Assembly (NCBI GenBank): GCA_027014155.1
Contig: JALWEG010000066.1
Coordinates: 1-38,538, forward strand
Direction of reading: 5' to 3'
Source of the DNA: Aquificaceae bacterium
GTDB taxonomy: Bacteria; Aquificota; Aquificia; Aquificales; Aquificaceae
DNA: 38,538 nt
Shown here: positions 26,882 through 31,103 of the stretch, piece by piece
Position numbering within the stretch: the first letter of the stretch is position 1
Layout: every line of letters starts with the position of its first letter
Program-made: the position numbers and the translations under genes
The notes under the pieces: generated by a model
The model's input: only the letters and a program-made list of their open reading frames with translations
The model's database searches: none
What the model was told of the DNA's origin: nothing

Positions 26882-28859
<1,978 letters not shown>

Positions 28860-28863
28860 TCAA

Positions 28864-28890
28864 AAGGGGGCGTTAGCCCCCTTCTCTATT
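28864..28890 (+). terminator. Intrinsic terminator of groES-groEL
   Basis: AAGGGGGC and GCCCCCTT form an 8-bp stem around a GTTA tetraloop (28864-28883), followed by a T-rich tail (CTCTATTTT). It is the only strong intrinsic terminator seen in this window. Confidence 0.9.
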
Positions 28891-28909
28891 TTATCCTTCC
28901 TGTGAACCT

Positions 28910-28929
28910 CTCCTTCCTTACGGAAGGAG
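28910..28929. repeat. Right-end hairpin, CTCCTTCC/GGAAGGAG
   Basis: A perfect 8-bp stem with a TTAC loop (plus strand), 1 nt inside the GTGAACC end motif. Its 16-nt core recurs at 29246-29261 with one difference. Confidence 0.7.
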
Positions 28930-29245
28930 CTTCCGGTAGAGATTACTCCCACCCGGAAGATCCGCATGGGGATTCCTGCTTCAACGAGAGATGGCTAACA
29001 CCCTCCTCTGAGAGTATCCCGCCAGAGCTCTCTCCACAAGCGTTAGTTCGGGTCGCTCCGACCCTACCACCCGTCAGGTGGGTGAACCCTAAATCCTTTT
29101 GTTTCTAATCTACTACAAACCTTTTACCACTCAGGTGGAGGCTGGCATCACACCCCTTTAGCTCTCCACCTGCGCAAATTATTTTAGCTCTTCACTCCGC
29201 TACATGCAATCCCAGAACGCCCTTGCGGGCGACGCACTGCACAAC

Positions 29246-29261
29246 CCTCCCTTACGGAAGG
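29246..29261. repeat. Left-end copy of the CCTnCCTTACGGAAGG hairpin segment
   Basis: CCTCCCTTACGGAAGG, 15 of 16 bases identical to 28912-28927 and in the same orientation. Folds through CCCTT/AAGGG. It lies just past the rfbD stop codon. Confidence 0.65.
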
Positions 29262-29265
29262 GGAC

Positions 29266-30120
29266 TTAGGGCGTAAATTTAGTTAAAAATTCCCTTAATG
29301 CTTCCTTCCAGTGTCTCAACCTTATCCCTTTAACGCTTATCAGGGGAGTCCAGCGGGGAATCTGGGCCTTTCTCGGAAACTCAGAGCTGGATACGGGTTT
29401 TACACGAGCCTTTACGCCCGCCAACCTGAATATCTCAAGGGCGAACTCGTACCACGAACAGTACCCTCCGTTGGTAATGTGGTAGGTTCCGAAGGGTCTT
29501 CTTTTGAGAACTAAGTTCCATATCTCTTTTGCCGCATCTACGGTGTAGGTGGGAGACATAAATACGTCGTCCACTATCCTCAAGTCCTCACCTTCCTTTG
29601 CCTTCTTGAGTATGTTGAGAACGAAGTTGCCTCCCTTACTCTTTGAACCTTTCTTTCCGTAAAGGCTTGCGACCCTGACTATGTAGTGCTCCCTCAGGTA
29701 GTTCCTCACCATAAGCTCTCCCGCATACTTGGAAATCCCATAGACGTTTATGGGGTTGGGCGTGTCCTCTTCGGTGTACGGTTCCCTTAGCTCGGCCTTT
29801 TTTCCATCAAACACGTAATCGGTGCTTATGTGAAGTAGAACCGAGCCAAACTTCCTGCAGACATCTACCAGGTTTTTCACCCCGGCCAAGTTAACCTCAA
29901 AGGCCCTTAGCGGAAATTCCTCACAGGAATCCGTTTTGTGAAAGGCTGCGGTGTTGATAACCACTTCCGGCTTGAGGTTGTGTAGAACTCTTTTCACATT
30001 TTGGAGGTCGGCTATCTCTATATCCTCGTGGGTTAGGCCTATAACTTTAACACCTTCGGGTGTAAGCTTGAGAATCTCGCTTCCCAGCTGTCCGCCGGCT
30101 CCTATGACTACCACTCTCAT
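29266..30120 (-). CDS. rfbD: dTDP-4-dehydrorhamnose reductase
   Basis: A 284-residue extended SDR that reduces dTDP-4-keto-L-rhamnose to dTDP-L-rhamnose. The nucleotide-binding GAGGQLGSEIL is at the N-terminus. VVINTAAFHKTDSCEEFPLRAFEVNLAG, HISTDYVFDG and the catalytic Tyr-Lys in VYGISKYAGE are all present, and the C-terminal SSSEFPRKAQIPRW is typical of RfbD. The start is ATG 30120, overlapping the preceding stop by 4 nt; the frame stays open further upstream, into the neighbouring gene. It is last in the operon. Its stop (29266-29268) lies only a few bases from the left hairpin of the omega-RNA-like element. Confidence 0.94.
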   Translation of the reverse strand: MRVVVIGAGGQLGSEILKLTPEGVKVIGLTHEDIEIADLQNVKRVLHNLKPEVVINTAAFHKTDSCEEFPLRAFEVNLAGVKNLVDVCRKFGSVLLHISTDYVFDGKKAELREPYTEEDTPNPINVYGISKYAGELMVRNYLREHYIVRVASLYGKKGSKSKGGNFVLNILKKAKEGEDLRIVDDVFMSPTYTVDAAKEIWNLVLKRRPFGTYHITNGGYCSWYEFALEIFRLAGVKARVKPVSSSEFPRKAQIPRWTPLISVKGIRLRHWKEALREFLTKFTP

Positions 30121-31103
30121 ATCTGTATACCCTTCTCCAAGAGACGCTTGTACCACTCTACAGTTATGGTGGTAGGGTCTTCGGGGTCAAGCCGTCCTTC
30201 TTTTAGAGCTTTCCAAATCTCAACGGCACCCTCTTCGGGTGTGTAATCGGGAGTGAAACCCAAAACTCTTTTTATCTTCTGGAAGCTAACTCTGTAGCTT
30301 CTATGGTCTGGAAGGCCATACCATTCGTACTTGAACTCTATACCTATGGCCTGAGCTATCCTCTTAGCCAGCTCCATTATTTGACAGTTTTGCTCGTCTG
30401 AGCCTACGTTAAAGATTTGCCCGCTTACCTTTTCCGCTGGAGCTTCCAAACTCATAGATATGGCCTTGGCCGTATCTCTCACATGGACGAAGGGCCTCCA
30501 CTGGGAGCCGTCCCTGAGTATGGGAATCTTGCCCTTTAAGAAAAAACCCCTCACCATTCCGTTTATCGCCAAATCAAATCTCATACGGGGTGAAAGCCCG
30601 TAAACCGTAGCCTGCCTGAGGATTACAACGGTAAACCTATCGTCCTTTAGAGCGAGTATGTCTTCTTCCGCCTTCAAGTTGGCCTTCGCGTAGGTGGTTA
30701 ACGGATTTGTGTCAGATGTCTCATCTACCACGGCGTCTTGGAACCCATACACGCTACAAGAGGAAGGAAGTATATACCTTCTTACTCCCGTAGCTTTAGC
30801 CAAAGACGCGACTCTAAATCTCCCTAAGTGGTTTATCGCCCAAGTTCTTATAGGTTCTATCTCCCCCGAAGGGTCGTTGGAGAGGGCAGCGAGGTCTATA
30901 ACCGCATCTATGTCCTTGAGCAGTGCCGGGTCAAAGGAGCGGATGTCCTCTTGAAGGATTTCTAAACCTTCAGTGTCCGAAGGAAGTTTATCTTTGCCAA
31001 AGAAGAACCTATCCAGCGCCAAGACTTTGTAGCCCTTTGCTAAGAGTTGTCTCGTTAAGACGGAGCCTATGTAGCCTCCCGCACCCGTTATCAAAACTCT
31101 CAT
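30117..31103 (-). CDS. NAD-dependent epimerase/dehydratase-family SDR with altered active site
   Basis: A 328-residue extended SDR. The Rossmann motif GAGGYIGSVL is intact, as are DLAALSNDPSG, the active-site Ser region LPSSCSVYG, and LRQATVYGLSPRMRFDLAINGM and GSQWRPFVHVRDTAKAI further on. The catalytic Tyr138 is followed by Ala-Lys-Ala-Asn, so position 142, normally the Lys of YxxxK, is Asn. Lysines sit at 140 and 144 instead. I recall a related SDR subfamily with YAKCN, so this may be a family trait. It occupies the place where rfbB (dTDP-glucose 4,6-dehydratase) would be expected but does not have RfbB features. Epimerase, reductase or dehydratase activity on a dTDP/UDP-sugar is possible. 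It overlaps both neighbours by 4 nt. Confidence 0.82.
   Translation of the reverse strand: MRVLITGAGGYIGSVLTRQLLAKGYKVLALDRFFFGKDKLPSDTEGLEILQEDIRSFDPALLKDIDAVIDLAALSNDPSGEIEPIRTWAINHLGRFRVASLAKATGVRRYILPSSCSVYGFQDAVVDETSDTNPLTTYAKANLKAEEDILALKDDRFTVVILRQATVYGLSPRMRFDLAINGMVRGFFLKGKIPILRDGSQWRPFVHVRDTAKAISMSLEAPAEKVSGQIFNVGSDEQNCQIMELAKRIAQAIGIEFKYEWYGLPDHRSYRVSFQKIKRVLGFTPDYTPEEGAVEIWKALKEGRLDPEDPTTITVEWYKRLLEKGIQI

Follow-up and report, generated by a model that had tools for sequence, protein, structure and literature searches.

TnpB is usually studied together with an omega RNA that is encoded in cis. Altae-Tran and colleagues reportedly described, in 2021, stand-alone omega RNAs of IscB/TnpB systems that lie away from a nuclease gene, and suggested that these act in trans; the RNAs considered here differ in lying within whole mobile elements that possess both transposon ends. 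For TnpB of ISDra2, the guide RNA (reRNA) consists of the 3' end of tnpB and the right end of the element, followed by a guide of about 16 nt taken from the flank, and the TAM is identical with the target of TnpA (PMC8612924, PMC10278001). The reRNA of IS607 TnpB, represented by RAGATH-18, has a core CUGUGGAG ... UGAAGCAGGAA motif and a closing stem (PMC11061315). The PATEs of Haloquadratum and Halanaerobium, as far as the available portions of the two accounts describe them, are short, IS605-derived elements present in many copies, with near-terminal palindromes of IS605 type and without inverted terminal repeats, target duplication or a transposase gene; they are defined there by their ends or by fused termini, and a guide RNA is not described in those portions (PMC3119063, PMC7290912).

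The element reported here shares with ISDra2 the make-up of the RNA, the flank-derived guide, the identity of TAM and target, and a homologous TnpB, but its RNA stands without tnpB, its TAM is TTTAAC-like instead of TTGAT, and it bears an extra 5' stem and a promoter-like site. The core motif and closing stem of RAGATH-18 are likewise present. All the traits just listed for the PATEs of Haloquadratum and Halanaerobium recur in it; compared with those elements, as the same portions present them, it has in addition a complete omega RNA and a conserved 5' module. PATEs and omega RNAs are each known, and their combination, with its own conserved module and in many copies, is a variant that was not found described: a limited search, which is not proof of novelty, yielded no description of omega-RNA-only PATEs in the literature covered.

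The element and its insertion site

The window is the whole stretch of DNA that was analysed, 38,538 nucleotides forming contig JALWEG010000066.1 of a heat-loving bacterium of the Aquificales. It contains the convergent genes groEL (27219-28859, plus strand) and rfbD (29266-30156, minus strand), both open, and between them, on the minus strand from 29287 to 28902, an element of about 386 bp. The element and its surroundings are made up as follows.

28902-29287, minus: complete non-autonomous IS605-type element, a PATE of family A; left end 29287, right end 28902, boundaries common to 10 or more copies with unrelated flanks
29282-29287, minus: TTTAAC, target site and predicted TAM at the left end; present at the left boundary in almost every copy, with differing flanks before it
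29266-29281, minus: final codons of rfbD, which the element provides (KFTP and stop, for a predicted original GRIK and stop); from the computed joint of the flanks
29245-29263, minus: left-end subterminal hairpin CCCCTTCCGTAAGGGAGGG; from sequence and conservation
28910-28963, minus: two right-end hairpins, a CCGGAAG stem and a CTCCTTCC/GGAAGGAG stem; inverted repeats I1 and I4, with compensatory changes
28902-28908, minus: terminal GGTTCAC, the motif for cleavage at the right end; unchanged in nearly all copies
28886-28901, minus: host-derived guide AGGAAGGATAAAATAG, 16 nt by analogy with ISDra2; differs in every copy directly after GGTTCAC, location as in PMC8612924 and PMC10278001
28864-28883, plus: terminator hairpin of groEL, which follows the guide after a few bases; from a terminator scan

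When the genome from which the window comes (1.86 Mb, 67 contigs) was searched with the element stretch, 48 matching pieces were obtained. Full copies on contigs C8, C1 and C17 (two on the last) are 91-95% identical to the window element, several others run into contig ends, and some, such as those on C4 and C9, are truncated or decayed. Alignment of the copies revealed sharp common boundaries. On the left nearly all copies have TTTAAC-TAAA (one aligned copy has TTAAAC in place of TTTAAC), and on the right the boundary is GGTTCAC; outside these the sequence is unrelated. Target duplication is absent from this alignment, TTTAAC occurring at the left boundary only and the right flanks being unrelated. 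The window element has no open reading frame of transposase size, its only coding trace being a 47-codon remnant of tnpB; as in PATEs, the near-terminal palindromes are those of an autonomous IS605 element, and the copies are multiple and dispersed, with shared boundaries. This anatomy is that of the IS200/IS605 family, the element having inserted 3' of a short target of fixed sequence that is not duplicated. Since both ends are present, the locus is a whole non-autonomous element and not the fossil element end that a sequence-only reading of this DNA had offered as one possibility; that reading had placed one limit at 28902, exactly the last base of the element, and the other at 29263, 24 bases short of its start. 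The several percent of divergence among copies gives no indication of very recent movement.

Both neighbours had been taken to be intact housekeeping genes, which is correct to the extent that both are open, but the insertion has replaced the last four residues of RfbD: the joined flanks predict a protein ending in ...EFLTGRIK, whereas the present reading ends in ...EFLTKFTP. Because insertion took place 3' of TTTAAC in the last rfbD codons, the guide portion of the omega RNA is copied from the convergent intergenic DNA between rfbD and groEL, and it begins precisely at the element boundary, the identity between copies stopping sharply at GGTTCAC. An empty site was sought in relatives, but in the nearest of these (G001, G014 and G003) groEL does not adjoin rfbD. 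Apart from the window itself, a search with TTTAAC plus guide, allowing up to three mismatches, gave scattered matches; no empty site was demonstrated among these, and the reversed control gave two matches. In its own genome the guide has no close match besides the window.

The omega RNA and its tnpB-bearing relatives

The string GTTGAAGCAGGAATCCCC and the terminal GGTTCAC, on which the sequence-only reading had based its assignment to the TnpB omega RNAs, are found on the minus strand where it had placed them, and the strand is strongly structured, as it had also held: the RNA strand folds at -114.4 kcal/mol, against -92.5 +/- 5.4 for shuffled sequences (z = -4.06), and none of 200 shuffles folds as well. 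Three overlapping features were recognised here.

28969-29090, minus: omega-RNA scaffold core; covariance model R1, 96.3 bits, E 4e-24, the sequence being among the model's 22 training sequences, with helix covariation
28973-29040, minus: RAGATH-18-like segment below the Rfam threshold; 26.3 bits against a gathering score of 44.9, E 0.009
28949-29089, minus: in-frame remnant of the 3' end of tnpB, TnpB residues 380-426 (47 codons), overlapping the omega RNA; tblastn with a relative's TnpB, 81% identity, E 2e-16

In Rfam, at the gathering thresholds, only tRNAs were matched. The RAGATH-18 match is a distant likeness and not membership. Assignment to that family (Rfam RF03064) was rejected on the score and also on the parents of the element, which carry a Y1 TnpA (PF01797) of IS605 type and not an IS607 serine recombinase; the target, too, is TTTAAC and not AGGAG or GAGGG.

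In the consensus fold the GUUC of the terminal GGTTCAC pairs with an upstream GAAC (columns 61-64 with 221-224). In a set of 20 sequences, with and without a linked tnpB, both partners have changed in 11 of 56 pairs. When the cores of two families (see below) are aligned, 7 of 21 pairs are changed on both sides; double-change cells number 32, where shuffled controls give 12.0 +/- 2.7, and covariation drops steeply once the partners are slid. In PATEs alone there are 9 such pairs out of 78 and 15 such cells, where shuffling gives 4.4 +/- 1.6. The shuffle controls leave relatedness in, but the slid controls agree in direction.

No tnpB fragment had been seen in any frame by the sequence-only reading, which missed the remnant listed above. 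Since the omega RNA and the final codons of tnpB overlap, as in ISDra2 (PMC8612924), retention of the RNA also retains this stretch of the gene. The same scaffold and right end lie directly behind tnpB elsewhere, on contigs C50, C55 and C3 of the same genome and in five relatives (G012, G019, G026, G011 and G055), which bears out the earlier view that the locus specifies a TnpB omega RNA but has neither tnpB nor tnpA intact. These copies also bear on the suggestion that the locus belongs to another non-coding RNA family, or is a REP-like structured repeat, and only resembles an omega RNA. The failure of every Rfam family to reach its gathering score could be cited for this, but the in-frame TnpB C-terminus, the same sequence directly behind tnpB and the IS605-type ends leave it a negligible probability, and the tnpB-linked copies rule it out.

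Autonomous parents of the structure LE-tnpA-tnpB-RE, with the same ends, are present in related Aquificales genomes (G012:C12, G019:C165 and G055:C6). They encode a Y1 TnpA of 134-135 aa (Pfam PF01797, Y1_Tnp E 5e-45) and a TnpB whose length is about 436-461 aa (PF01385/PF07282, OrfB_IS605 E 5e-33). With E 5e-55, the latter aligns over residues 15-383 with the TnpB of ISDra2, whose structure is solved (8BF8). Positions 1-72 and 203-386 of the window element align to the left and right ends of the parents in G012 and G019, and positions 1-43 and 198-386 to those of the parent in G055. In the window's own genome, C51 has the left end followed by the first 254 residues of TnpB, without tnpA, and C50, C55 and C3 have 3' halves of TnpB followed by the same right end. 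No full-length family-A tnpB lies on one contig of this assembly; the gene is divided at contig ends, so that an intact copy is likely to exist, though not assembled. The RuvC motifs GIDLG, FEKLN/FENLN and DRDYN are intact in the family-A TnpBs, and a nuclease-dead TnpB repressor (TldR) was rejected as the partner of the RNA on this ground. Family-A TnpA was not found in the assembly, the only two Y1 matches being both about 36% identical to it; one adjoins a TnpB of family C (see below), and a contig end truncates the other. As no cognate TnpA was seen in this assembly, the window copy may now be immobile in this genome. In a relative, a family-A IS605 element (G011:C1:750166-753266) has its tnpA interrupted by another, tnpB-only element.

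The PATE-specific module and a proposed use of the guide RNA

Element positions of about 73-202 have no match in the autonomous elements examined (those of G012, G019 and G055), and derivation of the tnpB-less form by simple internal deletion was rejected for this reason. The module recurs in PATEs of six other genomes belonging to two other genera, making three genera in all. Two features were noted within it.

29181-29209, minus: promoter-like TTGCAT-N17-TAAAAT; from site score and conserved place
29132-29172, minus: PATE-specific 5' stem CAGGTGGAG...CTCCACCTG; a perfect inverted repeat

In most family-A PATEs, drawn from seven genomes, TTGCA[TC]-N17-TAAAAT has the top score or shares it, with 8 of 12 consensus bases, and stands at a constant position; in two it is weaker (7 of 12). 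A stricter sigma-70 promoter scan of the groEL-rfbD gap called nothing, so it is conservation that points to a promoter function for this site. Between PATE copies of the same genome, pairwise difference is 3.2% in the 5' stem, 3.2% in the right part of the scaffold and highest, at about 10%, in the linkers that flank the stem.

It is probable, at roughly six chances in ten, that the element is a guide-RNA PATE derived from an IS605-type parent, and that its RNA is loaded by a TnpB from elsewhere and guides it to the element's own empty site, where cutting would promote retention. On this proposal a transposon of the structure LE-tnpA-tnpB-RE would have been reduced by loss of tnpA and of almost the whole of tnpB, while its ends and the entire omega RNA were retained. 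The RNA might be transcribed from a promoter of its own or by read-through from rfbD, and family-A TnpB encoded elsewhere (C51, C50, C55 or C3) might bind it in trans. After excision, TnpB and the RNA would cut the empty site TTTAAC-AGGAAGGATAAAATAG, and repair from the sister copy would restore the element; excision and spread would require TnpA in trans. Retention by guide- and TAM-directed cutting is modelled here on ISDra2 (PMC8612924) and on gene-drive work (PMC11870625). The cognate tnpB genes elsewhere in the genome make use in trans plausible, and to that extent agree with the sequence-only reading, which had suggested a partner encoded elsewhere; the TnpB-derived repressor that it had named as a candidate is unlikely, given the conserved RuvC residues.

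The element might instead be inert, either dead or mobilised purely by TnpA, its omega-RNA sequence being unused as a guide and kept only through overlap with the right end, on which TnpA depends, and the fairly young age of the copies. The absence of cognate TnpA from the assembly, the partial overlap of the scaffold with the right-end hairpins and the truncated or decayed state of the C4 and C9 copies are all in keeping with this. The omega core, however, lies well outside the terminal hairpins, and its pairing is kept through compensatory changes in PATEs alone; moreover the 5' stem, for which a TnpA would have no need, ranks with the best-conserved parts and is common to three genera. We regard inertness as rather unlikely. 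Far less probable is domestication of the window copy as a stand-alone RNA, recruited together with TnpB, or with a repressor derived from it, for gene regulation or defence. Guide RNAs are indeed present in multiple copies alongside TnpB, and TldR repressors offer a precedent (PMC13418256), but the guide comes from the local insertion flank and finds no other close match in the genome, the guides, each taken from a flank, differ from copy to copy, and the cognate TnpBs keep their catalytic residues.

Distribution and a second family

The R1 model of the core was built from 22 sequences, several of which are among the loci counted here; it gave 34 matches in the window's own genome, of which 30 are strong. 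Directly upstream of 7 of the 30 strong matches there are at least 125 aligned TnpB residues; the other 23 have none of this extent. The locus had been called an orphan, a description at odds with these approximately 23 tnpB-less omega-RNA loci, among which are members of family A and of a second tnpB-less family. Of family A the genome has about 10 copies, and of the second family about 14. Across the order, the core RNA occurs in 52 of 112 genomes, the window's own genome having by far the most (30) and the next 12.

The second family, family C (L037-L042 and L134-L155 in the same genome), consists of tnpB-less omega-RNA elements of about 250 bp with the right end GAGGTCAC. Its cognate TnpBs are encoded on C61, C23, C59 and C21, in the first case together with a Y1 TnpA. 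A TTGAAT-N17-TAAATT site and a 5' stem are located in family C at the place equivalent to that in family A. A wider proposal, which we put forward tentatively and as somewhat less than an even prospect, is that such tnpB-less elements form a self-sustaining class of guide-RNA transposons, with their own promoter, a dedicated 5' stem and retention by TnpB in trans at more than 20 chromosomal sites, so that one TnpB would be served by a dispersed repertoire of guides derived from host flanks; on this view two families of a single genome appear to have arrived at the arrangement. The weight of the question lies in the numbers, with tnpB-less loci outnumbering tnpB-linked ones about 23 to 7 in a single genome, and in small elements whose folds and upstream module are conserved across genera. 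If TnpB is indeed loaded in trans, an omega RNA alone would suffice for RNA-guided retention, and the element would live on the TnpB system as a minimal parasite.

Two further kinds of element were observed. L031 (C24:33020-33239) is a chimera of the two families: family A contributes its left end and its 5' stem, and family C the core together with the right end. A third set of short elements (L043, L044, L045 and L047) has the left end TTTATC and the right end CGGAGAGGTTCAC, and these ends relate to those of a divergent TnpB family, represented by the TnpB loci L021-L023.
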